From Blastomonas sp. (GTDB lineage Bacteria > Pseudomonadota > Alphaproteobacteria > Sphingomonadales > Sphingomonadaceae): DNA of 64,000 bases. Position numbers and translations under genes: made by a program. The stretch covers positions 1-64,000 of the forward strand of contig NZ_JAUCZC010000008.1 in assembly GCF_030373265.1 (NCBI RefSeq). Reading direction: 5' to 3'. Under the pieces are notes generated by a model, which worked only from the letters and a program-made list of their open reading frames with translations, was not told where the DNA came from and made no database searches. Of the stretch, positions 11,261 to 44,549 are shown piece by piece. The stretch's first letter is position 1; each line of letters starts with the position of its first letter.

Positions 11261-11333
11261 TGCAGTTAACTTCACGGCTGGCTCAGCTCAGACGCGCGGC
11301 CAGCACAATCACACTGGCGTGAAGTTAACTGCA
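11261..11333. repeat. 16-bp perfect inverted repeat, GTTAAC type
   Basis: TGCAGTTAACTTCACG at 11261-11276 and its exact reverse complement at 11318-11333 flank 41 bp. They occupy the 331-bp gap (11185-11515) between the convergent XRE and resolvase genes, so promoter function is unlikely; an origin, partition or recombination site is possible. No convincing gene is seen in the rest of this gap. Confidence 0.75.
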
Positions 11334-30838: not shown

Positions 30839-30912
30839 GGCCCGATGGCGGAGTGGTTACGTAGAGGACTGCAAATCCTCGCACGCCGGTTCGATTCCGG
30901 CTCGGGCCTCCA
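30839..30912 (+). tRNA. tRNA-Cys (anticodon GCA), CCA encoded
   Basis: Acceptor GGCCCGA pairs with TCGGGCC, the anticodon stem-loop is GAGGACTGCAAATCCTC with GCA, the T-arm is GCCGG TTCGATT CCGGC, and T-CCA ends the gene at 30912. The layout matches other bacterial tRNA-Cys. The last 16 bases are duplicated at 36978-36993, so this gene is the attachment site of the adjacent element and is kept intact by integration. Confidence 0.95.
30897..30912. other. attL: left 16-bp direct repeat of the tRNA-Cys element
   Basis: CCGGCTCGGGCCTCCA, the 3' end of tRNA-Cys including CCA, is repeated exactly and in the same orientation at 36978-36993. The match stops on both sides, defining the core. Confidence 0.92.
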
Positions 30913-30951
30913 CCCCCTTTGTATTTGGGCAACGAAACCGGGGTGTTCCGG

Positions 30952-32091
30952 CTATTTGGTGTCTAACTTCGATTGAGGGTTAGACTTTTCCCAATCCACA
31001 AGCTGGTTGATGGCGCTTCGCGCCAGTCTTTCCTGATTGGCAGCCTCGGTGTAGCGGGCAATCTCATCATCCTTCGAGTGCCCACTGACCGATTTCATAG
31101 TTTTGTTGGGCATTTCGAGTTCAGCCATCCGCCTCATGGTTGCCTTGCGTAAGCCGTGCGCAGTGCATTTGGGTAGGCCTGCTGCGTCGCATTGCTCTCG
31201 AAACCAGCCACCAAATCCTTTGACGGAAAATGGGCGGCCCCATTCGGTCATCAAAAAGCACATGGCATCGGACTTGGGCATGGCTGCAATGGCATCGGCA
31301 AGTGGCGGCGCGATAGGAAGGGTTAGGAGTTTGCCGGTCTTGGTTTGCCGAAGCTCGAATTTTCCGTTGCGAATGTGCTGCCGCCCAAGGTGGATTGCAT
31401 CAACTTTGCGCTGATCGGTCCACAGCATCAATTCCATTGCCAACCGCTGCTTTGACCCTAGCGGCCAGTGGGTGCGGTATTGTGTAATGTCATCTTCCGT
31501 CCAGGTGTAGAATCCCGTCGATCGCTCGCTGGGCGAGACCCGAATTTGTTGCGAGTCGTCCACTGGGTTCGTTGCAATCCAGCCCAGTTTGCGCGCAAAT
31601 GCGAAAAAGCGTCTCAGCTCCTTGCGCAGCTTTCGGGCGGCTTCGACACCGCCCACAGTGCGCCCCTTGTGATCGAGAGTCTTGATGCGGGCCTTAGCAA
31701 TAATCGCGTCGATATGTTCAAAGCGAATGCCTCTGACGGGTCGGTCCTCTCGACCCTCGGCAAAGCGCTCAAGAATATTCCTGACCTTAATCTGGGTGAC
31801 CTCGCTGGGGCCAAGACGTTCAGGGATAGCGACGTAACGACGCAATAGGTCTCCAATGCTGCCGGGAGGGCAGCGTTCCGCAGCCAAACTTGCTGCCGCC
31901 TGCGCGACAATCTCGGCGCTATTGAAACGGTGATATTCTTCGCGGAATGCCTCTGTTCCCAGCGGTGCGGTGAAATATTGTGAGGGATAGCCTTTCCGCC
32001 TAAAACGCAGTCGCTCCTTGCCGTGCCTGTCTTTGAAGAGAGACACGTATTTGGGGAGGAAGCGGTTTGCTTTCGATCTGCGGCGGCTCAT
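30952..32091 (-). CDS. Tyrosine integrase of the tRNA-Cys element
   Basis: 379 residues from ATG 32091 (MSRRRSKANRFLPKYVSLFK); this start overlaps the stop of the upstream small gene as ATGA, so it is preferred over 32112. Catalytic residues are visible: Arg I in LMLWTDQRKVDAIHL (a variant setting), His-x-x-Arg in TAHGLRKATMRRMAE, HSKDDEIARYTEAAN with the nucleophile Tyr in ARYTEA. It lies 40 bp from attL and is transcribed toward the tRNA, the standard arrangement. This is probably the enzyme that integrated the element. Confidence 0.92.
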   Translation of the reverse strand: MSRRRSKANRFLPKYVSLFKDRHGKERLRFRRKGYPSQYFTAPLGTEAFREEYHRFNSAEIVAQAAASLAAERCPPGSIGDLLRRYVAIPERLGPSEVTQIKVRNILERFAEGREDRPVRGIRFEHIDAIIAKARIKTLDHKGRTVGGVEAARKLRKELRRFFAFARKLGWIATNPVDDSQQIRVSPSERSTGFYTWTEDDITQYRTHWPLGSKQRLAMELMLWTDQRKVDAIHLGRQHIRNGKFELRQTKTGKLLTLPIAPPLADAIAAMPKSDAMCFLMTEWGRPFSVKGFGGWFREQCDAAGLPKCTAHGLRKATMRRMAELEMPNKTMKSVSGHSKDDEIARYTEAANQERLARSAINQLVDWEKSNPQSKLDTK

Positions 32092-32285
32092 GCTGGCAAC
32101 TCCGCGTCCCAAGGATTGTTGCCAGCATCTCCCGCAAGCGGGCTTTCGCTCAAGATAACCAGAATGGCCCCAGACGGTTCAATACGATAACCACTTGGGC
32201 GCAAGCCGGCTCGTTGTGCAGCGCGAAGCGCTCTCGTGGCATCCGCTTGCTTGAATTGCGCTCTCCGCGTTGTCCCGACGCTCAT
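32088..32285 (-). CDS. Small protein upstream of and coupled to the integrase
   Basis: 65 residues (MSVGTTRRAQFKQADATRAL, then RAAQRAGLRPSGYRIEPSGA). Its stop overlaps the integrase start by 4 bases. From memory, short proteins with the FKQADATRALRAAQ...G...I.P.G.I pattern are frequent partners of integrases in alphaproteobacteria. A directionality role like an excisionase is possible but not shown; no winged-helix motif is obvious. Confidence 0.75.
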   Translation of the reverse strand: MSVGTTRRAQFKQADATRALRAAQRAGLRPSGYRIEPSGAILVILSESPLAGDAGNNPWDAELPA

Positions 32286-32366
32286 GAGCAGAATTCCGGC
32301 GTATAAACGGGAATGAGATTGCCGTTGCGAATAGGGCAGGCTCTGCTGGAAACATTCTGGCTAAAA

Positions 32367-32419
32367 GATGGATAAATCCGCATGGCCATATATACAGCCA
32401 AATGCGGATTTTATCCATC
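32367..32419. repeat. Long imperfect hairpin
   Basis: GATGGATAAATCCGCAT (32367-32383) pairs with ATGCGGATTTTATCCATC (32402-32419) with one bulged T, and the stem continues inward through TGGC/GCCA around an AT-rich loop. It lies in the 188-bp gap between the XRE gene and the small integrase-coupled gene, both on the minus strand. It could be a terminator, a recombination-directionality site or a single-strand origin. Confidence 0.75.
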
Positions 32420-32473
32420 CTACCGACCTCTGAACATAAACTATTGGTCTATTTTCAAGCCGATTATAGGCTA

Positions 32474-32713
32474 TCAAATGGTCGCCATAATTGCAGAAAA
32501 CAGCTCTTCGGGCTTTTCATCCAACGCCCTTGCTATCTCGGCAAATTCGATGACGTCCAGTCTTCGCTGTCCCCGTTCAATATTGCTGATATAGGATTGA
32601 TCGCGTCCTAGCCGTCTCGATAGCGTTTCTTGGGTCACACGCTTTTCACGCCGCACGTCACGAAGTGCAGCTATGAAACTCCTATGATCTTCCGTGAAAA
32701 TTGTTTTCGCCAT
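32474..32713 (-). CDS. XRE-family transcriptional regulator
   Basis: 79 residues from ATG 32713 (MAKTIFTEDHRSFIAALRDV). The Cro/C1-type helix-turn-helix is complete: REKRVTQETLSRRLGRDQSY, then ISNIERGQRRLDVIEFAEIA and RALDEKPEELF. It diverges from the lipoprotein pair across 78 bp that contain a near-palindrome CGGTTAACG flanked by ATATGC repeats, a plausible operator. It probably controls itself and the lipoprotein genes; this is inference from the layout. Confidence 0.88.
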   Translation of the reverse strand: MAKTIFTEDHRSFIAALRDVRREKRVTQETLSRRLGRDQSYISNIERGQRRLDVIEFAEIARALDEKPEELFSAIMATI

Positions 32714-32791
32714 CGTGGCTGTCGAGCCCTTTGGCGATTGCAATATATGCGGTTAACGAATATGCATTTTTCTAATATTTTGGAGGTGTGA

Positions 32792-33106
32792 ATGGGCAAG
32801 TTTACCGCATTGGTAGGCATGGCAACGGTAAGCACTCTGCTGTCAGGTTGCGTTTCGATGGGAACGAACTTTGATCCGGCAGCCGTCGGAATGGTACAGG
32901 CAGGCATGACGGAAAGTGAAGTTGTCGGGCTACTGGGTAAGCCTAATAGCCGCTCGCGGACCGCCGATGGCAAAGAGGTTTGGGTGTGGCTATATAGTCG
33001 CGGGACGGCGCTTGGGTCTGCAAGGTCGCGGCTCGCAAGCATCCTGTTCGATCAACATCACAGGGTAATCCGTGTGCAAAACATGACCGAAACTGAGTTG
33101 CGGTAA
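32792..33106 (+). CDS. BamE/OmlA (SmpA)-like lipoprotein
   Basis: 104 residues with a lipoprotein signal (MGKFTALVGMATVSTLLSGC, lipobox LSGC). The mature part has the SmpA/OmlA pattern VGMVQAGMTESEVVGLLGKP followed by a strand-rich end (EVWVWLYSRGTA). GGAGGTGTGA precedes the ATG closely. It is a small cargo protein, not the housekeeping BamE, judging by its place in the element. It overlaps the next lipoprotein gene by one base (TAATG), so the two are probably translated together. Role unknown; surface exclusion is one idea. Confidence 0.85.
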   Translation: MGKFTALVGMATVSTLLSGCVSMGTNFDPAAVGMVQAGMTESEVVGLLGKPNSRSRTADGKEVWVWLYSRGTALGSARSRLASILFDQHHRVIRVQNMTETELR

Positions 33107-33567
33107 TGAACCGCTTCGCGCCAATACTAGCGATAGCCCTCGCCTGTGGCGGGTGTGGAACAGACAACCAGATGGCCGCCGATAGGAAGCCAGATAAGTT
33201 ACGGCTTGCAGATATTGCGGCTGTTGACGCGGTAAAGTCCAAGCTGCGCGATCCCGGCAGCGCGCAATTCAGGAATTTCCGTCGCGTCCCGATGTTTGCT
33301 GATTCCGAAGCGGATACTGCAATAGGAGAGTCCTATGTGTATTGCGGCGAAATAAATTCGAAAAATGCATTCGGTGGCTATGTAGGATTTACCCGACTTG
33401 CAGTATTGCCGTGGGCGAGCAAGAAGCCTGACGATCCGTATGGCGTACCGGGCGAGCAGTTGTCGGTGTATATCTTAAACGCGGACGATCTGTTTGGCCC
33501 AATAGCAGTTAACCCTTTCTGTGGCGAACCGGGTTCGGAGAAAACGGGAACACCCATAAAAGCGTAA
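33106..33567 (+). CDS. Lipoprotein, unknown function
   Basis: 153 residues. A lipobox is visible in LAIALACGGCGTDN. The mature part begins after a short linker with LADIAAVDAVKSKLRDPGSA, then QFRNFR and VYCGEINSKNAFGGYVGFTR, a pattern I recall from small hypothetical proteins of phages and proteobacteria. Two further cysteines (YCGE and FCGE) could form a disulphide. It starts on the last base of the preceding lipoprotein gene and is followed by a strong hairpin, so the pair is one short operon. Confidence 0.8.
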   Translation: MNRFAPILAIALACGGCGTDNQMAADRKPDKLRLADIAAVDAVKSKLRDPGSAQFRNFRRVPMFADSEADTAIGESYVYCGEINSKNAFGGYVGFTRLAVLPWASKKPDDPYGVPGEQLSVYILNADDLFGPIAVNPFCGEPGSEKTGTPIKA

Positions 33568-33592
33568 GGGGGTTGGATCAAATCCAACCCCC
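33568..33592 (+). terminator. Probable terminator of the lipoprotein operon
   Basis: Perfect 11-bp stem GGGGGTTGGAT / ATCCAACCCCC with a 3-base loop, beginning immediately after the stop codon. There is no clear T-run after it. The rest of the gap to 33867 holds no convincing gene. Confidence 0.7.
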
Positions 33593-33867
33593 TGTTGCAA
33601 AGTCCTGGGTTCTGTCCTGTATTGTAATCAATTCCTGAAATTGCATCTTCCTGAATCTCAGTTGCAATCTTCCATGTTCCTAAAATGATGCCGAAGGCAG
33701 TTGTGGTTTGCGAGATTTGTCTTGCTGCCGCTTACGATGCCCTGCCCGTGTCCACCTCGCTAAGACCGCACTTGAGCATGCGGCCCAATGGCCGCCCGAC
33801 CTCTTTTAATGCTGTTTCATTCGCTCTCGGAATTCGTACCATTTGTACCATTTCCAAGAGGAAAGCG

Positions 33868-34980
33868 TCACAGATCAACCTCCTCGACGCGCTCTGGCTC
33901 AACCATACATGACCGGAGAAATTCATCCCATCTGGCTAAATCGCCTCGGCGTGCGACGAATTCCCGCTCGACGCTTTCTCGCATTCCTCTCATTGTTGCG
34001 CGGCTATGCCCCGCTGCGTCACGAAGGCAATTCCAATGACGCTGCTGAAACACCATTGGAGTTCGTTTGCCCCGCGCAACAAATAGGAAGCGTCCGCCAT
34101 CATGCCCCATGGACTCTAGCAGTTGTTTGACTACCTCGCTGCGGCGGCCTGACGTATGATCGTCGCCTTCGGGCCATTCATGCCAAGCACGTTCACGGGT
34201 GAGTGAGAGAATTTCATCGATCGATCGCCCGCTGGCGATCATCAGGCGAAACGCGATCGCCCAATTGGCGGGGAGTACCGCACACGCTCGCCAAATAGCA
34301 CCAATTTCAGCGCCGGTGGGCGAATACGAGTGCGCGCGAGGTCGCCAAGGCAACTTCACTCGCCCACGTAGTACGTTGTAGCGAACCAGACCCTTCGAAT
34401 AGGCCCAGGTCAAAAACGCTGAAAGGATGTATGCAGGCGTTCCTTTGACATAGTAGCCTTCCAAGTGATCAAATAGTTCGGCTGCTTGATCACCAGTGAG
34501 TTTATTTATCTCGACATCACCAATTTTTGGCAAAATCAAGTCCCTGAAGGTTTTTTCAATTCTGCCTGACCACTGCGATTTTGGTTTTTCGCTTATGTAA
34601 ATGTCGAAGCTTTGCGCGACGGTCTTTTTATTGGGACCCCCGATAAAAACTCGGGACATACGCCCTTCGTCTCGTTCAATTTTGATCCGTGATGCCGCTG
34701 CCCGTGCTGCCGCGATTGATTGGGACTCTGCATTCCCTAGTGTGACCGCCTGCTTGCTACGGATGCCGGGCTGCCGATAGCAATAGGTTTTTGCGCCTGA
34801 TGGACGGATGCGCACGAAAAGGCCTCTCATAGAGGCATCGTGAATCGACCGTTCTCTGCGGATTGCAACCGCCTCGGCGACCATTTCGTCTGTTAGCTCG
34901 GCACGTTCCGAGGCTTTGCGACCTCGGCGTTCTATGTCCCACTCAGGGTCTTTGAAGGCCGATTTTCTGCGTCGAGACAT
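33868..34980 (-). CDS. Integrase-like protein lacking the catalytic tyrosine region
   Basis: 370 residues. The N-terminus has the arm-type fold of P4-like integrases (MRGLFVRIRPSGAKTYCYRQ, then QAVTLGNAESQSIAAARAAA) and a core-binding domain follows. Arg I is present in LMIASGRSIDEILSLT. Where HxLR is expected the text is TMRGMRESVERE, and the protein ends without the GH...Y block. The reading frame is open, so this is either a decayed, inactive recombinase or one converted to another role. No good ribosome site is seen before the ATG at 34980. Confidence 0.75.
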   Translation of the reverse strand: MSRRRKSAFKDPEWDIERRGRKASERAELTDEMVAEAVAIRRERSIHDASMRGLFVRIRPSGAKTYCYRQPGIRSKQAVTLGNAESQSIAAARAAASRIKIERDEGRMSRVFIGGPNKKTVAQSFDIYISEKPKSQWSGRIEKTFRDLILPKIGDVEINKLTGDQAAELFDHLEGYYVKGTPAYILSAFLTWAYSKGLVRYNVLRGRVKLPWRPRAHSYSPTGAEIGAIWRACAVLPANWAIAFRLMIASGRSIDEILSLTRERAWHEWPEGDDHTSGRRSEVVKQLLESMGHDGGRFLFVARGKRTPMVFQQRHWNCLRDAAGHSRATMRGMRESVEREFVARRGDLARWDEFLRSCMVEPERVEEVDL

Positions 34981-35066
34981 AGGAGGAGATTCCTTTCCTC
35001 CCCTTATACAGTGGCGCGCGAGAAATCTCGGTAAGGGGCCTTACTGACCTCCCGCGCGCCAGTGCA

Positions 35067-35285
35067 TCAGCGAGCGCCTTCGATGACCTGAGCGTCGAAA
35101 AGCTTGGCAAGCTGGCTAGTCTGCAAGCTGGTGTAAATGCTCGGTCCTGCTGCGGTATAAACGACCGCGCCGCCATTTGGGCCGTTCGGTCGTGAACCGA
35201 CAACCTGCGCGCGCCGGATCAGCACACCATCGCCCGTCACGCTGGGAAGGAATACGAAGCCATTCTGTTCGTCGGTCTGTTCCAT
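35067..35285 (-). CDS. Small hypothetical protein
   Basis: 72 residues from ATG 35285 (MEQTDEQNGFVFLPSVTGDG), with GGAG about 7 bases upstream. The sequence is strand-rich (VLIRRAQVVGSRPNGPNGGA, then VVYTAAGPSIYTSLQTSQLA). No family is recognised. It lies upstream of the degenerate integrase on the same strand and diverges from the AbiTii gene. Confidence 0.6.
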   Translation of the reverse strand: MEQTDEQNGFVFLPSVTGDGVLIRRAQVVGSRPNGPNGGAVVYTAAGPSIYTSLQTSQLAKLFDAQVIEGAR

Positions 35286-35308
35286 GTTCAACTCCATCTG
35301 GTTGGTTC

Positions 35309-35358
35309 ATGGGGAGAAAAGCGGGTGGAATTAATTTCCTACGTCACCTTCTCCCCAT
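35309..35358. repeat. 10-bp perfect inverted repeat upstream of the AbiTii gene
   Basis: ATGGGGAGAA (35309-35318) and TTCTCCCCAT (35349-35358) flank a near-palindromic GGAATTAATTTCC. This is in the 299-bp divergent region 35286-35584 before the AbiTii gene and may be an operator. An 83-codon frame (35325-35576) also crosses the region but is not convincing as a gene. Confidence 0.55.
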
Positions 35359-35584
35359 TATCTAAAACCAGATTCCCATGGGGTGTCAAATATTCGGTCG
35401 TCGCCCAGCCTCCATCGGTCGTTTTCAAAGAGGTAGATTTCCTCCCTGAATCGCAACGCGGCAGGCGTTATGCGGTAAGGCTGGAGGCGAAAGGAGATTA
35501 TATTTTTGCGAAACCAGCGCACCGAGGAGTGACCTTCGGCGAAGTTAGCACTAGAATGACCCTCAATGTGGCGTAGGAGCTTTG

Positions 35585-36454
35585 GTGCCGGGTCTCGTCG
35601 AACAACTTCAATCGGATGCTTTGGACAATAGTGTTTCCGTGGGCACCTTACTCGGTAGGGTAAAAATTTGCGCGGTACGGCTAGGACTTGAAGACGCGCT
35701 TGCGTGGGTTGAAGGTGAACTGAACGGCTATGATTGCGACGGCGATAAACTGCCACCATATCGGGTAACGCAAGGTATTACCAACGCCCAGGATAGGTTC
35801 GGACGCTGGACACCAATTCAGTTTGGTGATGCTGACCTTGCAGACAAGATTGCAAAGGTTTATTATAAAGAGCCGGTCTCTAGTTACGAAGAGCTGCTCC
35901 GCAGTGATGCAAACACTTTCATGATTCCGATTGATAATGGACTGGTCAACATCCTAGCCAAATCATACGGAGTAGAAATCATTGCGATGCGTAATATGGT
36001 TTCACGAGGTGCAATGCATGCAATAGTTCAGAAGGCGAGAAATCTTGTTCTTGACTGGTCTCTTGAGCTTTCGCGTGCGGGTATAAACGGAGATGGTATG
36101 AGTTTCAGCGCCGATGAGCGAGAGCGCGCCGACAGCGCGCATATTTCTATAGGCACATTCCATGGCACATTCAGCACGGGCGATGCTTCGGGTGAAGGTG
36201 CGAGGATTCAACAGTCTTATTCGGCTACAGCCACGGATTTGCCTGCAATTGTCGAGCTGATCGCTGCAGTGCGCGCCAATGTATCGGAGGCAACCGAACA
36301 GGAGGCGATCGTGGCTGCTGCGATGCAAATTGCCGACGCCAAGGACAAGCCGACGATGCTGCAAGGGTATGATAGGCTGATTGCTGCGGCTGCGAACCAC
36401 ATGACGGTAATCGCGCCATTCCTTCCAGCAATAGGCTCGATGCTAGCTAGCTAA
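35585..36454 (+). CDS. AbiTii-domain protein (abortive infection type)
   Basis: 289 residues from GTG 35585, with GGAG at 35576-35579; an in-frame TTG at 35582 is too close. The N-terminal half matches the AbiTii domain as I know it: LVEQLQSDALDNSVSVGTLL, then GRVKICAVRLGLEDALAWVE and GELNGYD...LPPYR. The middle (RGAMHAIVQKARNLVLDWSL) is typical of the same family. The C-terminus is helical with a hydrophobic end (HMTVIAPFLPAIGSML). AbiTii takes its name from lactococcal phage-resistance genes; mechanism is unknown to me. Its place in a small mobile element fits an antiphage role. Confidence 0.85.
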   Translation: MPGLVEQLQSDALDNSVSVGTLLGRVKICAVRLGLEDALAWVEGELNGYDCDGDKLPPYRVTQGITNAQDRFGRWTPIQFGDADLADKIAKVYYKEPVSSYEELLRSDANTFMIPIDNGLVNILAKSYGVEIIAMRNMVSRGAMHAIVQKARNLVLDWSLELSRAGINGDGMSFSADERERADSAHISIGTFHGTFSTGDASGEGARIQQSYSATATDLPAIVELIAAVRANVSEATEQEAIVAAAMQIADAKDKPTMLQGYDRLIAAAANHMTVIAPFLPAIGSMLAS

Positions 36455-36529
36455 ATCCCGCGTGAGCATGCCGAGCATCTTGGCAGACTACCATTTTGGG
36501 GGCTGCGGTGTGTCCGATGAGGTAACCAT

Positions 36530-36880
36530 ATGATGACGTATGTGGGTACGAGGCTGCCAACAGATTACATTGAGGCGTTGGATAGTTGGCGTCTCGCACA
36601 AGATGATCCCCAGCTAACGCGAAGCGATGCCGTAGAATATTTTATCGCAAAGGGTTTGGAAATGGCAGCCCCCAGTTTTGCGGGGCGGCGACGGCGACCT
36701 TCGGAGTCAGATCGCGATGAAAGAGCTGAAAAATACTGCCAGCTTTACGCGGAGCTTGGGACTTACACTGCGGTTGCTAGGGAAGTAGGGTTCTCCGTCG
36801 ACACCGTGAAGAGGGTGATCCATAGTTATGAACGGAGAGTTCGTTTTCCAAGGGCGCGACCTACGCCTGTCGGTGCGTGA
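36530..36880 (+). CDS. Ribbon-helix-helix plus helix-turn-helix regulator
   Basis: 116 residues; ATG at 36530 or 36533. The N-terminus (YVGTRLPTDYIEALDSWRLA, then LTRSDAVEYFIAKGLEMA) has the strand-helix-helix pattern of CopG/Arc-type binders. The C-terminus (LYAELGTYTAVAREVGFSVD, then TVKRVIHSY) is a resolvase-like helix-turn-helix. Two DNA-binding units in one small protein are unusual. It is the last gene before attR, 75 bp downstream of the AbiTii gene on the same strand, and may regulate it. Confidence 0.7.
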   Translation: MMTYVGTRLPTDYIEALDSWRLAQDDPQLTRSDAVEYFIAKGLEMAAPSFAGRRRRPSESDRDERAEKYCQLYAELGTYTAVAREVGFSVDTVKRVIHSYERRVRFPRARPTPVGA

Positions 36881-36977
36881 TCTGGTTAGCCAATGGAGTA
36901 TAAACCATTGATATATCGTGGGCCGAAATTTGCCAGTTAGACAATCGAGGGCCGCACCAAACCTCAATTGTGGAACC

Positions 36978-36993
36978 CCGGCTCGGGCCTCCA
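36978..36993. other. attR: right 16-bp direct repeat of the tRNA-Cys element
   Basis: CCGGCTCGGGCCTCCA, identical to the tRNA-Cys 3' end at 30897-30912. It is a bare fragment with no tRNA body, lying 18 bp from the end of ligD, and marks the right boundary of the element. Confidence 0.92.
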
Positions 36994-37011
36994 ACTCTCC
37001 TGATCTGACCG

Positions 37012-39516
37012 CTAATAGTCTGGCAGCGCCTGTTCGGCGAAGCCCCAGCCGCGCAAGCCAGGGTCCGCCGCGCGGTTGATCAGCGCCTGGGCATCCTCGA
37101 TCGTCCATCTGTCCGCAGACTCGATATCGGCAAGCTCTTCCCATCCGATCGGCGCCGCCACCGGCGCCCTGGGCCGCGCCCGCGCGGAATAGGGCATCAC
37201 TGCGGTGCTGCCGCGCTGGTTGCGCATCCAGTCGATGAAGATCTTGCCCTTGCGCTTGGCCTTGCTCATCGTTGCGACGAAGCGGTCGGGTTCGGCCAGG
37301 CTCAGGGCTTCGGCGAAATGCCGGGAAAAGGCCTTGTGCTCCTGCCAGCCATGTCCCGGGGTCAAGGGGACGACGACATGAACGCCCTTGCCGCCGGTGA
37401 GCATCGCAAAGCTCACAAGGCCGATGTCGGCGAGATGCCCGCGAATATCCAGCGCGGCCTTGCGGACGTCGGTGAAATCCAGAGCGTCATCCGGGTCGAG
37501 ATCGAACACCAGCCTGTCAGGGCTTTCCACCGCGTCGCTATGGCTGGCCCAGCCATGAAACTCGATGGTCCCCATCTGCACGCAGGCGAGCAGCCCGTCG
37601 GCGTCCTCGACATACAGATAATCCTCATGCCCGCCGTGCTTTTCGCGAATCGCGACTTGATGGACGGCATCACCGAATGCCCCCGAATCGTGTTTCTGGA
37701 AGAAGCATGCCTTGGCGCGCCCCTGCGGGCAGCGGACAAGGCTGATCGGCCGACGCGCGGCGTGGAGCAACATCAGCGGCGCGACGGCAGCATAATAATC
37801 CGCAAGATCCCCCTTGGTCTTTTTCGCTTCGGGAAAGATGATTTGCTCGCGGCTGCTGATCTTCACGGCGGGGGCAGCATCGGGCGCCGGGCCCGCCACC
37901 TCGGGCGTGACCTCGCGCGCCGGCTTGTCGGCTCTCAGCCCCAGAAAGCTGGCGTGGCGCACCGATCCGCCGGCGGTGAACTGGGCGAACGCGATCTGGG
38001 CCACCAGTTCGGGCCGCAACCAGTGCGCATGGCGCGCGCTGGCGGCATCGGTCTTAAGCGGTGCGGTCTTGCGCGCCAGCCGCGCGAAGCTCCTGGCCAG
38101 ATCCTGCATCGCATCGGCGGAAAAGCCGGTGCCGACATTGCCCTTGTAGACCAGCGCGTCGCCTTCATATTGCGCGAGCAGCAACGAGGCGAACGGGCGG
38201 CCCTTGGCCTTGGACGGGTTCCAGCCGACGATCACGAACTCCTGCGCCAGCGTGCATTTCACCTTGACCCAGTTGCTCGACCGCTTGCCCGAATAGCTGG
38301 CGCCGGCGCGCTTGGAGATGATCCCCTCCTGCCCGGCGTCGCACATCGCCTTGTACAGCCTCTCGCCCGCACCGATGACATGATCGGCGACCGCGACCGG
38401 CCCGCTGGCCTGATGGAGCAGCGCCTCGAGCCGCTCCTTGCGTTCCAGATTGGTGAGGTCGTCCAGCGTCTCGCCATCGCTTTCGAGCAGGTCGAAGGCG
38501 AAGAACGACAATGCGGTATCGTCGCCCTGCGCGCCGCTGCCGCGCTTGAGCACCGCCTGCAGCGCGGAAAAATCCGGGTTTCCGCTGCTATCGAAGGCGA
38601 CGATCTCGCCATCGATCAGACAGGGCGGCAGATCGAGCGCGGCGATGTGGCGCGCGAGCGGCGCGAACTTGTCGCTCCAGTCAAGCCCGTTGCGCGTGTA
38701 GATGCGCACATTATCACCCGCGGCGGCGACCGCAGCGCGATAGCCGTCAAATTTGATCTCGTGGATCCAGTCATGCCCCGTCGGCACCGCGTCCACCAGC
38801 GTTGCCAGTTGCAGCGAACGGAAGCTGGGCGGCTTGCCCGCGCCCGATCGGCTCGCAGCGGGCGCCCTGGACTTTGCAGGTTTGGCGGACTTGGCGGGTT
38901 TTGCGGCAGACTCGGGGGCTGCGCCCTCCTCCCCCGATGCGATCTGCGCCATCGTCCGGCCGGTCGAAACGCTGGTCAGCGCGCGCCCGACCAGATCGTC
39001 GGTGCCGCCAGCCCAGTCGTCGTCGATCTTGCGCAGCAGCCAGTTCTCGCGCTTTTCGCCCGCGCGCGGCTTCATCCGCACCAGCAGCCATTCGCCCTGC
39101 ATGCGCTCACCCTCGAGCGTAAAGTGCAGATGCCCTTCTTCGATATCGCTGGCGCTCTTGCCGGCGATCGGCGCCCAGGTTCCGCGATCCCACAGCATCA
39201 CCGTGCCGCCGCCATAAGAGCCCTTGGGGATCACGCCTTCGAACGCGGCATAGGCCATCGGGTGGTCCTCGGTGCGCACCGCGAGACGCTTGTCGGAGGG
39301 GTTGGCGCTCGGCCCCTTGGTCACCGCCCAGCTCTTGAGCACGCCGCCGATCTCCAGACGCAGGTCGTAATGCAGCCTTGTGGCATCGTGCTTCTGGACG
39401 ATGAATAGGTGTCGGTCGCCTTTGCGCCCCCGACCCGGCTTGCCCGCAGGTTCGGCGGTGACCGAAAAATCGCGCTTGGCATTGTACTGCGCGAGCGGAT
39501 CGGGCGCCTTGGCCAT
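37012..39516 (-). CDS. ligD: Multifunctional ATP-dependent DNA ligase LigD (NHEJ)
   Basis: 834 residues from ATG 39516 (MAKAPDPLAQYNAKRDFSVT). Domain order is 3'-phosphoesterase (about 20-190, FIVQKHDATRLHYDLRLEIG and DHPMAYAAFEGVIPKGSYGG), a Lys/Ala linker, the ligase domain with nucleotidyl-lysine about K255 (HEIKFDGYRAA) and GEIVAF, then the AEP primase/polymerase domain (about 560-830, DRLVFDLDPDD with metal-binding Asp residues). It seals double-strand breaks with Ku. The ku stop lies at 39518, so the two genes abut and form one operon with ku first. Confidence 0.95.
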   Translation of the reverse strand: MAKAPDPLAQYNAKRDFSVTAEPAGKPGRGRKGDRHLFIVQKHDATRLHYDLRLEIGGVLKSWAVTKGPSANPSDKRLAVRTEDHPMAYAAFEGVIPKGSYGGGTVMLWDRGTWAPIAGKSASDIEEGHLHFTLEGERMQGEWLLVRMKPRAGEKRENWLLRKIDDDWAGGTDDLVGRALTSVSTGRTMAQIASGEEGAAPESAAKPAKSAKPAKSRAPAASRSGAGKPPSFRSLQLATLVDAVPTGHDWIHEIKFDGYRAAVAAAGDNVRIYTRNGLDWSDKFAPLARHIAALDLPPCLIDGEIVAFDSSGNPDFSALQAVLKRGSGAQGDDTALSFFAFDLLESDGETLDDLTNLERKERLEALLHQASGPVAVADHVIGAGERLYKAMCDAGQEGIISKRAGASYSGKRSSNWVKVKCTLAQEFVIVGWNPSKAKGRPFASLLLAQYEGDALVYKGNVGTGFSADAMQDLARSFARLARKTAPLKTDAASARHAHWLRPELVAQIAFAQFTAGGSVRHASFLGLRADKPAREVTPEVAGPAPDAAPAVKISSREQIIFPEAKKTKGDLADYYAAVAPLMLLHAARRPISLVRCPQGRAKACFFQKHDSGAFGDAVHQVAIREKHGGHEDYLYVEDADGLLACVQMGTIEFHGWASHSDAVESPDRLVFDLDPDDALDFTDVRKAALDIRGHLADIGLVSFAMLTGGKGVHVVVPLTPGHGWQEHKAFSRHFAEALSLAEPDRFVATMSKAKRKGKIFIDWMRNQRGSTAVMPYSARARPRAPVAAPIGWEELADIESADRWTIEDAQALINRAADPGLRGWGFAEQALPDY

Positions 39517-39517
39517 A

Positions 39518-40405
39518 TCAGGCGCGCTTGCGCGGAGCCGCCTTTTTGGGCGCGGCCTTGGCCGAGGACTTCGCCTTGGCGGCGGCGGGCTTCTTGGCCT
39601 GGGCGGGCTTCTTGCCATCGACCGAGGCCTTGAGCGCGGCCATCAGATCGATGACGTTCGATCCGCTTGCACCGGTATCGGCGGGCTCTTCGACATCCTC
39701 GAGCACGCGGGCGCCCTTGGCCTTGGCCTTTTTGGCGATCACGCGCTTGAGCGCATCGACATAGTGATTTTCGTAATCCGCCGCATCGAACTTGCCCGAT
39801 TTCTTCTCGATCAGCGTCTCGGCCAGATCGAGCAGATCGGCATCGGGCTTGTCATCGCCCACCTCGCGGAAATAGTCCGCCGCCTTGTTGACCTCGTCGG
39901 CATAGCGCAGCACTTCCAGGATGAGACCGCGACCACACGGGCGCAGCGCCACGAGCTGTTCCTGGCCGCGCAGCGACAGCTGACCCAACCCGACCTTCTT
40001 GGTCCGCTTGAGCGCCTCGCGCAGCACGATATACGCCTCTTCGGCGAGCTCGTCGGCCGGCGCGACATAATAAGGCTTGGTGTAATAGAGCAGGTCGATC
40101 GAGTCGATGTCGACAAACTGGACCAGTTCGAGCGTACGCTTGCTCTCGAGCTTGACCGCCTCGATCTCCTCATCATCGAGCAGCACATAGTTGCCCTTCG
40201 ACAGCTCGAAGCCTTTGACGATATCGTCGTGGTCGATCGCGCCGATCCCCGGCACCACCTTTTCATACTTCACCGGCTTGCCGCTGGGTTCGTGGATCTG
40301 GCGAAAGCTGACCGACGCGCCCGATTTGGTCGCCGAGTAGATCTCAACAGTGATCGACACCAGCGCCAGGCGGATGTGTCCCTTCCAATATGCGCGTGCT
40401 GCCAT
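39518..40405 (-). CDS. ku: Bacterial Ku protein (NHEJ end binding)
   Basis: 295 residues from ATG 40405 (MAARAYWKGHIRLALVSITV); an upstream in-frame start at 40429 is less likely. The Ku core is clear: RQIHEPSGKPVKYEKVVPGI, then FELSKGNYVLLDDEEIEAVK and IDSIDLLYYTKPYYVAPADE. A Lys/Ala-rich C-terminal tail (KKPAAAKAKSSAKAAPKKAA), often used for DNA threading and LigD contact, is present. It is directly upstream of ligD on the same strand. Function: binds broken ends and recruits LigD. Confidence 0.95.
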   Translation of the reverse strand: MAARAYWKGHIRLALVSITVEIYSATKSGASVSFRQIHEPSGKPVKYEKVVPGIGAIDHDDIVKGFELSKGNYVLLDDEEIEAVKLESKRTLELVQFVDIDSIDLLYYTKPYYVAPADELAEEAYIVLREALKRTKKVGLGQLSLRGQEQLVALRPCGRGLILEVLRYADEVNKAADYFREVGDDKPDADLLDLAETLIEKKSGKFDAADYENHYVDALKRVIAKKAKAKGARVLEDVEEPADTGASGSNVIDLMAALKASVDGKKPAQAKKPAAAKAKSSAKAAPKKAAPRKRA

Positions 40406-40536
40406 CTTGACCCCCGAAGGTTGTTCCACCTGCAGATATGCCTCAGACCACGACAGGTTCCAAACGTTCCGCGCACAACGCGTCGCCTGTCGGTCCGTCG
40501 AGGATCGCGGTGGGTCTAGCGCGAAGGGCCTTCAGG

Positions 40537-41145
40537 CTAGCTCGCCCAATAGAGATGGCATGGCGGAATGTTGCGCCACACAAAGGATTTGCGCACCTTG
40601 CCGAAGCGCGGTTCCAGATAGCCTTCGACCGCGGTGCGCATCTGATAGGCCAGCACCTGCCCATGAGGCGACAGCACCTGCGCGCTGGCGTCCATGATCT
40701 GGTCCGCCAGTTGCGCGGACATCGTCGAAAACGGGATCCCGGTGACGATCAGATCGGCCGAACCGAGGCCGTGGCGTTCGAGGATTTCGGCAACCGAAGA
40801 CGCCGACGCGGTGACGGCGAGCAGACGCGGATCGTCGATCGAGCGCTGAAGATGCCGGGTAAAATGCGGGCTGACGTCGAGCGTGACCAGCCGGCTGTCG
40901 TGCGGCATCCGCTGCAGCATGGCGCGCGTGAGCGGGCCCGAGCCCGGGCCGTATTCGACCACGACGCGGGCGCTGCTCCAGTCCACCGGATCGAGCAGCC
41001 GGTCCACCAGAACCTGCGAGGCCGGGAACGCCGAACCGACGAGCTGCGGGCTGCGCAGGAACTCGCGCGCAGACACGCCCAGCGCGGACGTCTTGCGCGC
41101 AAGATCGCTCGAGGTCTTGTCGGGGGATTGGAACCGGGTTGCCAT
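40537..41145 (-). CDS. SAM-dependent methyltransferase (phospholipid N-methyltransferase-like)
   Basis: 202 residues from ATG 41145 (MATRFQSPDKTSSDLARKTS); an in-frame ATG at 41166 is also possible. It is a class I methyltransferase with AdoMet motif VVVEYGPGSGPLTRAMLQ, acidic motif VTLDVSPHF and motif IV DLIVTGIPFSTMSA. The pattern resembles PmtA/PE N-methyltransferase-like proteins related to rRNA adenine dimethylases. Substrate cannot be fixed; lipid methylation is a guess from the family. Confidence 0.8.
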   Translation of the reverse strand: MATRFQSPDKTSSDLARKTSALGVSAREFLRSPQLVGSAFPASQVLVDRLLDPVDWSSARVVVEYGPGSGPLTRAMLQRMPHDSRLVTLDVSPHFTRHLQRSIDDPRLLAVTASASSVAEILERHGLGSADLIVTGIPFSTMSAQLADQIMDASAQVLSPHGQVLAYQMRTAVEGYLEPRFGKVRKSFVWRNIPPCHLYWAS

Positions 41146-41175
41146 GCCTGTCTCCTGGGTCTGCATGTTGGGCTA

Positions 41176-41820
41176 TCAACGTGGCGACGCAGCACCGGGT
41201 TCCGCGTCTGCTGCAGTCGACTGGGGCACCAGGATCAGTTCCCGGCCCTCGACCCGCCACGATTGCAGTTGCGACAGGAAGTTCATGCCCAGCACATCGA
41301 CGTTCCCAAGCGCAGGCGACACCACCACCTTGAGGTTGCGCGCCTCGATATTGCCGAGGCCGAGCTGCTCGACCGTGCCGGTCTGCGCCTGGACATTGCC
41401 ATTGGCGGTCCGCAACACCACCGGCAGCAACCCTGCCGAGTAGCTCACCGATGCAGCATCGGCGGTTGCCTGCGACAAGGCGGTCACGGTAGCGCCGCTG
41501 TCGATCAGCATCCGCCGCTCAACGCCGTTCAGCGATACCTGTGCCCAGAAATGGCCGTCGCTGGACATCCTCAGCCTGACCTCGTCGCCCTCAACCGATT
41601 GGGTGTCGAGACCCAGCCTCTCGGTGATCCGAGACAAATTGGGATCGAACGGCGCCTGCTGGAACAGCACGAACAGGCACAAAGCGAGCAATGCGATCGA
41701 AAACAGCGAGCGGAAGATGCGCCCGACAAAAGGGATATTGAACAGGATGAACAGCACCAATGCGCCGCCCGCAGCGTAAAGCGCAAGCTGCTGCCATTCG
41801 GGGTTTGTGGTGATTTCCAT
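41176..41820 (-). CDS. Membrane-anchored retropepsin-like aspartic protease (TIGR02281-type)
   Basis: 214 residues with two N-terminal membrane helices (QLALYAAGGALVLFILFNIP and IFRSLFSIALLALCLFVLFQ) and a periplasmic retropepsin-like domain. The catalytic motif is MLIDSGATVTALSQ, with a later VLGMNFLSQLQSW that matches the conserved GMSFL segment of this family. One active-site Asp per chain implies a homodimer. Target unknown. Confidence 0.88.
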   Translation of the reverse strand: MEITTNPEWQQLALYAAGGALVLFILFNIPFVGRIFRSLFSIALLALCLFVLFQQAPFDPNLSRITERLGLDTQSVEGDEVRLRMSSDGHFWAQVSLNGVERRMLIDSGATVTALSQATADAASVSYSAGLLPVVLRTANGNVQAQTGTVEQLGLGNIEARNLKVVVSPALGNVDVLGMNFLSQLQSWRVEGRELILVPQSTAADAEPGAASPR

Positions 41821-41856
41821 GCTGTCTCCGGTTGTGCCCGCCGCCCCTGTCCGGGC

Positions 41857-44322
41857 TTATACGATGTAGCGATCCCAGCTGCCGTAGCGTTCGTGGACCG
41901 AACCCCTGCGGACGCTGAGCGCGATCAATGCCAGACCGATGACGATGTTCGCACCGGTATGGAGGGGGCTCGCTTCGAGCACGAATGGCGTCACCATCGC
42001 TGCGACGCCCAGGGGCACAAGGCCATAGCGGACCGCGCGCGCGACTTCGGCAGCCGCCAGCGAGATCACGGTCAGCGCCAGCAGCCCGATGACATGATCG
42101 GCATGGGCCATGGTGCCCTCTGCGCCAAAGGTCAGCCGCGTGAACGGCAACGTGGCGGCCAATATGCCGGCCAAAGCGAGGTTCCATGGCAGGTTGACCC
42201 CGCCGATCCACATGTCCTTGAGCACCACGCCTGCACCGCGGTCGAACTCGTCGGCGCGCGCGTCGCGCGGTCCCTCATCGGTGTCGCCGAACAGGAAGAC
42301 CCGCAACCACGACCGCCCCGCCTTCGCCCGCCGCCGGACGAATTGCAGCGTCGCGAGCAATTCATCGAGCGAATAGGGAATCTGGATCAGCATCGCCGCC
42401 GCGCCGATAAGCGTCAGCGTCGCCCAGGTGCCGATGACGATCGGCTGGATGATCACGAACAGGATCGAGACCACGCCAAGCGGCGCGATCATCAGCCCGA
42501 ACAGGAACACCAGCCAGGGCATGGTCCGCCAGCGCGCGCGCGATCCGATGATGCCGGTGACGATCTCGAGCGCATAAGTATAGCCGCCGAGCGCGGCATC
42601 GGGGATCGGGAAAGCTTCGGAGACCGATGAGGTGATCACCGCCTCGGTGCCGTTCTTGGAGGGGTCGTCGGGAAGGCCCGGGAAGAACGGATCCCAGACG
42701 CCATCGATCTGGCCGAGCTGATAGGCGGTGAGATAGCGCGCCACCAGCAGCCCGACCAGCGCCAGCAGGATGATCGGCACCCTCTGGGTCCAGTTGGACG
42801 GGTTGTAGCTCCATCCGGGCGGCACATCCGGCCCGGTCATCGCCGCGACCATCGATGTCCCGGGCTCGGGCCGTGTGCCCACCGCAAGTCCGAAGGCGAA
42901 CGCGCCGACCAACGTATCGGACAGGAAGGCGGCGGGATTGGTCGTCCAGAACAGGAACGGCACCGCCATGATGCCCGCAGCGACCGCAGCGCTGGCCCAG
43001 CGCGCCCAGGCCATGCGCCACGACAGCGAGAGCGTGGCGAAAATCATCAGCGCGGATCCCAGCCCGATCTCGGACCAGAACAGCGCCGGTTCTGCGACCT
43101 GGACGATAACCGGCTGCACCAGGATCCATAAGCCCAGCGCGATGTTGACGAAATGCGCCCAGCGGGTTTCGCGATGCGCCGCGCGCCGCCATGTCTCGTG
43201 GCGCGCACGCAGCGCTTCGGGGTCTTCGCCCACCTCCTCGGCCTCGGTCACAAAGGGCGGAACGGGGATCTTGTTGGCCTCGTACCATGCCGCCGGATCG
43301 TCCTTGAGCGTCTCCACGATGGCGGGCAGCTCGTCCGCCAGCCGATGCTTCGGCTGCCAATCCAGCAGTTCGCGGGCGCGGCTGGTGTCGATCGCATAAT
43401 GATCGCTGGCCATCTCGATCATGAACGGCTGAATGAACGGCCGTTCGCCCTGATCGATCGCATCGGGGATCAGGGGCTCGGCCTTGTCCTGCACCCAGGC
43501 CCCCAATTTGGCCGGGGTCGATGGCACGCGCAGCGTTTCCCAATCATCCTCGCCATGGATCAGACACCCCAGCCGGTCCTGCAGATCGTCATAGCCGATC
43601 GCGTCGCTCTCGCCGATCAGAATGACGGTTTCGCCTGCAAAGCTGGCACGGCGGTCGATGGTGCGGACAAAGGCGTCGATCATGTCGTCGCGGTGGACCA
43701 TCGCCTGCCCGGCATCGGTATCGCCCGAATACAGATGGCTCTGGAAATCGCGCTCGTAGATCCGCGCGATCTGGTTGGCGAAGGTCGGCACCGATGTGTT
43801 CGTGTCGTACAGCCCGGCCAGGTGCAGATAGACCACCGGAATGTCGCCGCGTTCCTCGCCGATCGCCTGCTCGGCCTTGGCCTTGGACTTGGGATAGGCC
43901 CAGCCCGGTTCGATCGGGCGGTCCTCGTCGATGCGCTCGCCGGGGCGGCCCGGCTTGTGGACCAGCATGGTGCCCGAATAGACGAACTGCTCGACGTGGA
44001 AGTCCTGCAGGGCGCGGACGAGATGGCGGCTGCCATCGACATTGACCGCCTGATATTGCGGCTTGTCCTCGCCGCTGAAGTCGAAAAACGCGGCCAGATG
44101 GACGACGCTGGCGATATCGCGGCCGTGTTCGGAGCCGATCTTGTCCAGCGCCTTTCGCACGCTGCTCTCGTCGGTCAGGTCGACTTCGAAGACCGGATAG
44201 TCGGTGTCGCCGGTCACCATATCGAGCCCGACGACCGAATAATCGCGCTGCAAAGCCTGCGCCAGCGACTTGCCGATGTTGCCGGCTGCACCGGTAATCA
44301 GAACGATTGGCTTGTTCGCCAT
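41857..44322 (-). CDS. NAD-dependent epimerase/dehydratase fused to SPW-type membrane domains
   Basis: 821 residues from ATG 44322 (MANKPIVLITGAAGNIGKSL). Residues 1-370 form an extended SDR: Rossmann GAAGNIG, and YPKSK as the Tyr-x-x-x-Lys catalytic pair. After a linker, about ten hydrophobic helices occupy 390-821. The first block (WAHFVNIALGLWILVQPVIV) and the last (HTGANIVIGLALIALSVRRG) have the SPW-repeat look. The enzyme is therefore tethered to the inner membrane, possibly acting on a lipid-linked or sugar substrate. The reading frame is continuous, so this is a real fusion. Confidence 0.85.
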   Translation of the reverse strand: MANKPIVLITGAAGNIGKSLAQALQRDYSVVGLDMVTGDTDYPVFEVDLTDESSVRKALDKIGSEHGRDIASVVHLAAFFDFSGEDKPQYQAVNVDGSRHLVRALQDFHVEQFVYSGTMLVHKPGRPGERIDEDRPIEPGWAYPKSKAKAEQAIGEERGDIPVVYLHLAGLYDTNTSVPTFANQIARIYERDFQSHLYSGDTDAGQAMVHRDDMIDAFVRTIDRRASFAGETVILIGESDAIGYDDLQDRLGCLIHGEDDWETLRVPSTPAKLGAWVQDKAEPLIPDAIDQGERPFIQPFMIEMASDHYAIDTSRARELLDWQPKHRLADELPAIVETLKDDPAAWYEANKIPVPPFVTEAEEVGEDPEALRARHETWRRAAHRETRWAHFVNIALGLWILVQPVIVQVAEPALFWSEIGLGSALMIFATLSLSWRMAWARWASAAVAAGIMAVPFLFWTTNPAAFLSDTLVGAFAFGLAVGTRPEPGTSMVAAMTGPDVPPGWSYNPSNWTQRVPIILLALVGLLVARYLTAYQLGQIDGVWDPFFPGLPDDPSKNGTEAVITSSVSEAFPIPDAALGGYTYALEIVTGIIGSRARWRTMPWLVFLFGLMIAPLGVVSILFVIIQPIVIGTWATLTLIGAAAMLIQIPYSLDELLATLQFVRRRAKAGRSWLRVFLFGDTDEGPRDARADEFDRGAGVVLKDMWIGGVNLPWNLALAGILAATLPFTRLTFGAEGTMAHADHVIGLLALTVISLAAAEVARAVRYGLVPLGVAAMVTPFVLEASPLHTGANIVIGLALIALSVRRGSVHERYGSWDRYIV

Positions 44323-44549
44323 CAATTTCCCCCGAAAGACTGGTCTGTTCGCCCGGCGATCAGGCAGGCGTGATCGGCCGAGCCGCGCTGCGCCGGTGTT
44401 CAGGGCATTTACTGTTAACGCCGCGGTTCGTTGCCGAGCCCGCCAATTTCCTGCACGAACGAGCGGAAACATGCGCCGCGGGCTGGCATTGCCGCGCCGC
44501 ATCGCCCATCAGGGCACCCAAGCCTCAGCCGCCCAAGGAACGATGCCTT

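Follow-up and report, generated by a model that had tools for sequence, protein, structure and literature searches.

The 64,000-nucleotide stretch analysed here (the window; Blastomonas sp., contig NZ_JAUCZC010000008.1, positions 1 to 64,000) contains a small integrated element at the 3' end of a tRNA-Cys(GCA) gene, the features of which are collected in Table 1. The last 16 bases of the tRNA gene, CCGGCTCGGGCCTCCA, were found as exact copies at both borders of the element, which measures 6,081 bp. No other exact copy was present in the 3,658,526-base assembly (95.8% complete). When up to two mismatches were allowed there was no further match in the window, where 0.14 matches would be expected, and a shuffle control gave two matches in 1 of 100 shuffles. 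The G+C content of the element was 0.533, compared to 0.617 for the window. Next to the tRNA gene, and facing it, is the gene of a tyrosine recombinase (Int1) whose frame is open over 379 amino acids (aa) and whose alignment retained all of the R, K, HxxR, H and Y residues, which we take to be those with catalytic roles. The element has two features of a tRNA-integrated element, duplication of the tRNA 3' end at its two borders and an adjacent integrase with a complete set of catalytic residues. These findings upheld an original prediction, made from the letters of the DNA, of a perfect direct repeat of the tRNA 3' end, an integrase adjoining one end, and a small, sharply bounded unit with defence-like cargo.

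Table 1. Features of the tRNA-Cys element, in window coordinates (HTH, helix-turn-helix; ORF, open reading frame).
Feature	Position	Strand	Basis and remarks
tRNA-Cys(GCA)	30839..30912	+	ARAGORN; integration target, the last 16 bases forming the left att core
attL, 16-bp core repeat, tRNA side	30897..30912	+	Repeat search of window and assembly
Int1, tyrosine recombinase, 379 aa from ATG at 32091	30952..32091	-	Phage_integrase E 2.1e-12; alignment
Left arm-type sites TGTCTAACT and GGTTAGACT	30960-30968 and 30978-30986		Inverted pair within int 3' end; putative Int binding
ORF65, 65 aa	32088..32285	-	ATGA overlap with int; conserved upstream of related integrases; candidate excision cofactor
Cro/C1-type HTH regulator	32474..32743	-	PF01381 E 2.7e-11, phrog_3; shorter start at ~32713 possible
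BamE-domain protein, 104 aa, probable lipoprotein	32792..33106	+	PF04355 E 8.9e-06, phrog_3135
153-aa protein of a phage family without assigned function, probable lipoprotein	33106..33567	+	phrog_2320 E 6.3e-19
Int2, integrase-like; remnant or DNA-binding regulator	33868..34980	-	PF13356 E 3.5e-07, no PF00589; alignment
76-aa ORF	35067..35297	-	No family found (Pfam, PHROGs, PADLOC); may not be a gene
83-aa ORF directly upstream of AbiTii gene	35325..35576	+	No family found (Pfam, PHROGs, PADLOC)
AbiTii-domain protein, 290 aa	35582..36454	+	Domain at residues 5-186, then unassigned helical C-terminus
Putative DNA-binding protein, 116 aa	36530..36880	+	PF13542 E 6.7e-05; C-terminal HTH under Pfam cut-off
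Right arm-type sites GGTTAGCCA and AGTTAGACA	36884-36892 and 36935-36943	+	Putative Int binding
attR, 16-bp core repeat, distal side	36978..36993	+	Repeat search of window and assembly

Putative arm-type sites were identified at both ends of the element. The motif GGTTAGACA, with at most one mismatch, had five matches in 64 kb, four of them at the element ends. The left pair starts 64 (minus strand) and 82 (plus strand) bp away from the core on that side, and the right pair 110 and 59 bp before the right end. Two or more motifs at each 130-bp end were not obtained in any of 20,000 Markov simulations. In a 9.0-kb relative (L111; L and G are our handles for loci and genomes) the corresponding distances were 63 and 81 on the left and 111 and 59 on the right. 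The right arm sites of L169 were at 111 and 59, and L163 reached the motif threshold at 111 only, with a weaker copy near 59 seen by eye. Two tRNA-Glu elements (L082 and L087) had the variant GGTTAGCCA at 81 and 111, and L080, L084, L086 and L088 matched the window arm geometry in part or not at all. We take the two ends of the window element to belong to one attachment system.

The second component of the integration module is ORF65, the stop codon of which overlaps the int start by four nucleotides. Among 15 related loci that have an ORF65-like match, 12 show the same overlap (ATGA in nine, GTGA in three), as does L138. In PICMI115, a phage-inducible chromosomal minimalist island (PICMI), a gene overlapping int by ATGA, iolg, is necessary for phage-induced excision (PMC10803314). 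By analogy with that gene, and from layout alone, we infer that ORF65 is a candidate excision cofactor, and its conservation and position make this 65-residue protein a possible shared excision factor.

To place Int1 among its relatives, we searched 199 family genomes (E <= 1e-30) and 397 genomes (E <= 1e-45), which gave matches in 19 and 23 genomes, respectively, with the window counted in both, and scanned genome contigs (11 loci) and viral contigs (13 loci). A tblastn search against phages returned 14 records, each with less than 60% identity. Eight loci had integrases 73-85% identical to Int1 (L111, L112, L113, L119, and L122-L125; that of L119 is a 77-residue piece), and in four of these (L111, L112, L119 and L122) the integrase adjoins tRNA-Cys. 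The stretches of L123 and L125 show no flank, and L163, a longer stretch of the L124 contig that reaches the integrase, has one core, the 16-mer at its far end. Among the capsid-forming-satellite-like loci described below, only L111 had both ends in one stretch; it is bounded by a core of 17 exact bases with copies 9,018 bp apart.

Packaging genes of capsid-forming satellites were identified in five of the eight close-relative loci, tail genes being outside the search. PHROGs matches in L125 comprised helicase/primase, HNH endonuclease, TerL, major head protein, protease, portal, and head-tail adaptor. The same set was found by tblastn in L123 and L124, whose integrases are 99% identical to each other, and, except for HNH, in L122, which is cut inside TerL. 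In L111 the head protein, protease and portal were identified by PHROGs and HNH and TerL by tblastn. Based on this gene content, we call L111 and L122-L125 similar to capsid-forming phage-inducible chromosomal islands (cfPICIs). In an integrase tree of 24 rows the window integrase nested inside the clade of L112 and L122-L125, with the order (L125,(window,(L111,L122))); support was 100/97 for this group of four and 90/86 for the three inside it. For this tree 26 integrases were aligned and 24 kept, the fragments L113 and L088 being dropped; the L111 row is a 355-aa piece, and L080, L117-L121, L130, L134 and loci fetched later are outside the tree.

The window element and these satellite-like relatives (L111, L122-L125/L163) thus have in common integrases 79-85% identical and an ORF overlapping int by ATGA, as well as the same 16-bp core in L111, L122 and L163 and the same arm spacing in L111 and, in part, L163. 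They differ in what lies between the ends. The relatives carry TerL, head protein, protease and portal, with HNH in all but the cut L122 and helicase/primase relatives in L123-L125, whereas the window element has none of those genes and has instead AbiTii, the probable lipoproteins, the C1-like regulator and Int2. The DNA common to the window element and the loci compared was limited to the tRNA-int-ORF65 segment plus 47 bp inside one AbiTii gene (L104), and a distant blastn search of the whole element against plasmids gave no match.

Families of the cargo were sought with Pfam, PHROGs and PADLOC among the 10 ORFs of the element. The AbiTii gene named in the original prediction was confirmed, as its product matched PF18864 (E 1.8e-39; 136.3 bits against a cut-off of 27.6) and PADLOC model PDLC02334 (E 1.3e-41), which places it in the AbiTii family. 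The AbiTii domain has a conserved glutamate and is fused to HEPN domains in some homologues (PMC3710099), and lactococcal AbiTii on its own did not inhibit E. coli growth (PMC3985639). Lactococcal AbiT, which shares the AbiTii domain with the window protein, is an abiTi/abiTii pair (PMC3710099, PMC3985639), whereas no abiTi relative was recognised here, there being no PADLOC match to another Abi component among the 10 ORFs. A role in defence is plausible for this AbiTii copy. AbiTii matches were found in seven of the 199 family genomes, window included, with no other window cargo beside the homologues in the fetched loci (1.5-kb flanks), and a plasmid search returned 100 records, each with less than 60% identity. 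AlphaFold models of AbiTii and ORF65 (predicted local distance difference test scores of 78.4 and 68.9) had no PDB match better than E 0.88. One congener (G008; L105 and L110) has tandem AbiTii genes, and the same genome has a 9.9-kb capsid-forming-like element at tRNA-Tyr.

The original prediction also listed two lipoproteins. Two genes for small exported proteins are indeed present, one with a BamE domain and the other in phrog_2320, and the lipoprotein label itself comes from inspection by eye. Both resemble phage-encoded proteins, mostly without known function, and that the pair causes superinfection exclusion is a guess. The regulator gene, which diverges from this pair, was among the features that the prediction had not mentioned, together with Int2, ORF65, and the putative DNA-binding gene near the right end. 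Int2 has retained its arm-binding domain and the greater part of the core-binding region; in an alignment with seven of its 10 non-window homologues, its HxxR box and catalytic Tyr region could not be aligned, while the homologues keep this C-terminal part. In the family genomes, Int2 matched 11 of 199 at E <= 1e-10, window included, and the 10 other matches were 25-30% identical and ended at residues 258-264; by tblastn, two of these reached further (L095 to 276 and L102 to 323). This open frame in the middle of the element, with no catalytic end, could be a remnant or an arm-site-binding regulator.

In agreement with the prediction, a scan of the 10 ORFs revealed no structural, replication or transfer gene. 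The N-terminus of the putative DNA-binding protein at the right end is of ribbon-helix-helix type by eye and resembles small genes of related elements (39% identity to an L086 ORF, E 8.9e-06). Among the several HTH matches of this protein is a weak one to a terminase-small-subunit family (phrog_4044, E 0.026), which was the only hint of a gene of those three kinds in the scan. A tblastn search with 16 packaging and replication reference proteins gave a best E value of 0.33 inside the element, and a satellite-protease match at 36903-36995 (E 0.37) was taken as chance.

Together, these data indicate, with a probability that we put at roughly 0.77, that this is an integrated element built on the tRNA-Cys att/int chassis of a capsid-forming-satellite-like Sphingomonadales lineage and carrying another payload. 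We favour this interpretation because of the core duplication, the open integrase with its catalytic residues, the arm spacing, the ORF overlapping int by ATGA, and the nesting of the integrase among those of the satellite-like elements found here, the relation being to these elements and not to the published cfPICIs. The description of the element as phage-satellite-like can be retained for its integration module, as the integrase, overlapping ORF and att arms match. It was not supported for the element itself, since no packaging, capsid-remodelling or replication gene was found and DNA sharing was limited to tRNA-int-ORF65. In the mechanism we propose, Int1, with arm-bound help, would join attP to the tRNA-Cys 3' end via the 16-bp core and so rebuild the tRNA, and the ORF65 protein would help excision. 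The C1-like regulator would keep the element quiet, and AbiTii, perhaps with the lipoproteins, would lower phage growth. As no packaging, replication or conjugation gene was found, spread would rely on a helper, on the integrase of a co-resident satellite, or on transduction.

Several observations weigh against this interpretation. The window right flank differs from that of the congeners, so no clean empty site could be demonstrated, and none of the other genomes and loci searched contained the same element. Int1 and ORF65 were the only cargo of the element with close counterparts in the fetched loci; because the satellites have no DNA in common with it beyond int-ORF65, it may be that the integrase module was captured and that the element did not arise by the shrinking of a satellite. 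The ORF65-int overlap is missing in three of the 15 loci (L053, L115 and L116), the 90/86 fork is under the starred threshold of the tree tool, and a phrog_9 terminase was not found in the genome. In L113, with a 75% identical integrase, 2.1 kb of tRNA-side flank had neither tRNA nor core (at up to four mismatches). The tRNA-Cys end is used by other elements too, as an Int1 relative was present in only seven (L122, L157, L162, L163, L167, L172 and L178) of the 25 viral-contig stretches with the bare 16-mer; of the others, L169 has an ORF65 relative and 17 show neither.

Further observations concern the integrase relatives. In L081:1-2184 (G174), on the contig shared with L113 and L052, the 75% identical integrase has its left arm motifs and adjoins the 2.1 kb of DNA that has neither tRNA nor core, an arrangement that may reflect another target or an assembly break. 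Among more distant integrases (~50-62%), those of L114-L117 lie at tRNA-Cys, tRNA-Ala and tRNA-Arg, with no exact repeat in ~10 kb of the element side. Five others (L126, L127 and L129-L131) are on contigs of 35-39 kb and are probably prophages, and L128 is a 10.6-kb contig. In L126 a 60% identical integrase is followed after 145 bp by the 16-mer (11264-11279), the orientation of which is opposite to that at the other loci.

It is possible, but in our view doubtful, that the element is a decaying remnant, that is, a former tRNA-Cys satellite or prophage that lost its packaging genes, gained unrelated genes and is now immobile, its cargo being kept by chance or host benefit. Such a history, which is compatible with the chassis interpretation, would be in keeping with Int2 having no catalytic part, with the regions ~33570-33860 and 34980-35320 having no family-assigned gene, and with L080 and L088, of the same integrase family, having short or broken integrases while both att repeats are kept. 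Arguing against decay are the open Int1 frame with its catalytic residues, the perfect 16-bp repeats with four arm motifs, and the retained ATGA overlap with the upstream ORF.

The element itself did not fit the cfPICI or PICMI definitions used here. cfPICIs have their own capsid and packaging genes, which were absent from the window element, and it is the gene content of its relatives that resembles the cfPICIs of Enterobacteria (named in PMC11389934). A second class is that of the PICMI-like minimal satellites, and under this explanation the element's own Int and overlapping protein would excise it on infection and a helper phage would package it. Size (6.1 kb, compared to a mean of 6.7 kb for 67 Vibrionaceae PICMI-like elements), few genes, an int-overlapping ORF with ATGA, the lack of packaging genes and a predicted anti-phage gene are all as in PICMIs, and PICMI115 likewise is without a known packaging-redirecting gene (PMC10803314). 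However, AlpA and primase are mandatory beside int in the PICMI model, and PICMIs are sited next to fis (PMC10803314), whereas int was the only one of the three genes recognised in the window element, and its target is tRNA-Cys. No helper is known, and the genome yielded no phrog_9 terminase; overall, we consider a PICMI-like identity unlikely.

Genes flanking the element were compared with those of eight congeners; the names TolC-like, PCMT-like, LigD, Ku and YaiI-like are presumptive, being our own reading of the sequences. TolC-like and PCMT-like genes precede tRNA-Cys in all eight. The next gene after the tRNA is the YaiI-like gene (window ~44.5 kb) in four of the eight (G002, G004, G006 and, after one intervening ORF, G005). 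In G007 a window-like gene follows only after ~10.6 kb, and in G001, G003 and G008 there was no window gene after the tRNA in the stretch fetched. In the window, the ligD-ku block (36994-44540) parts tRNA-Cys from the gene that is next to it in those four congeners. The ligD-ku genes were found in five of the eight congeners at the threshold used, and not beside tRNA-Cys in the stretches examined. The empty site that had been predicted, tRNA-Cys followed by ligD, was thus seen in none of the eight, ligD-ku itself being displaced.

The finding that would have spoken against the original prediction, relatives without the element but with the second 16-mer before ligD, was not made: each of the eight congener stretches had one exact copy, with a three-mismatch near-copy away from the tRNA in two, and none was found within three mismatches near ligD in the five congener ligD loci. 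As no second exact copy lies in these stretches and loci, the second 16-mer appears to go with the element, and the ligD-ku block would have arrived by a separate rearrangement. We rejected ligD as part of the element, based on its congener location, the missing core repeat and its G+C content. Its separation of the tRNA from the next gene in four congeners could also mean that tRNA-Cys received a larger composite island in one event, made up of the element and the ligD-ku block (36994 to ~44.5 kb). This is very unlikely, as there is no third 16-mer (up to three mismatches) near 44.5 kb, ligD-ku is located elsewhere in five of eight congeners, and the ligD region has a host-like G+C content (0.64-0.67, compared to 0.533 for the element). 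That the second 16-mer is a chance repeat unconnected with integration can be dismissed, given 0.14 window matches expected even with two mismatches, only two exact copies in the genome, and arm motifs at matching distances at both ends.

Many satellites carry anti-phage genes (review, PMC11389934), and integrase elements that sit in tRNA genes and bring a defence gene are a known kind. What appears to be new is the joining of a capsid-forming-satellite-type integration module with a packaging-free AbiTii payload in sphingomonads; a narrow full-text search of the open literature found no paper on phage satellites in Sphingomonas or Sphingomonadaceae. A mini-island with defence cargo is thereby linked to the machinery with which capsid-forming-satellite-like elements integrate. 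If shared arms and core do let one integrase move another element, small defence islands that lack packaging genes could still spread. A broader speculation, to which we assign little weight, is that sphingomonads have an integration chassis with exchangeable payloads (a 16-bp core at the tRNA, arm sites at fixed positions, and an ORF-overlapped integrase) and that the mini-island rides in trans on the integrase, and possibly the packaging, of a co-resident tRNA-Cys satellite, as a "satellite of satellites". Payloads of such a chassis would include capsid-forming satellites, tailed prophages, filamentous-phage-like elements with restriction genes, a CRISPR-Cas9 island, and the packaging-free defence mini-island.

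Elements were sized by their att repeats in 48 loci, some of which cover the same place. Both repeats were found in 14, separated by 3.1 to 12.8 kb; among the remaining 34 are fragments and stretches not long enough to contain a prophage. Five of the 14 (L084, L086, L111, L143 and L144) had the full set of HNH, TerL, head, protease and portal, and three had a head protein without the full packaging set (L139, L082 with a primase, and L087 with a tape-measure protein). The remaining six (L080, L088, L138, L146, L147 and L153) had no match to the packaging references at E <= 1e-5; the family search covered, of these, only three ORFs of L088 and one of L080. Two of the six, L146 (3.1 kb) and L147 (5.8 kb, with an apparent inserted insertion sequence), were judged not to be comparable mini-elements.

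Payloads differed between the elements. L088:2800-15637 (G055) is a 12.8-kb element at tRNA-Asn with a short integrase, Cas9, Cas1 and Cas2, and a repeat array seen by eye. In L080:2283-14551 (G091), a 12.3-kb tRNA-Cys element with a shortened integrase, sugar-uptake and regulator genes were read from the ORFs. The 10.9-kb tRNA-Glu element L087:2995-13942 (G192) encodes a head protein and a 1367-aa tape-measure-like protein, which is odd in so small a unit. Two stretches look filamentous-phage-like: L153:1300-10296 (G184), which spans 9.0 kb at tRNA-Phe and has a distant Int1 relative and a Zot-like ORF by eye, and L169:1-11891 (IMG/VR), which has the same 16-mer as the window together with a DNA methyltransferase and a Vsr-like nuclease, as labelled from its ORFs.

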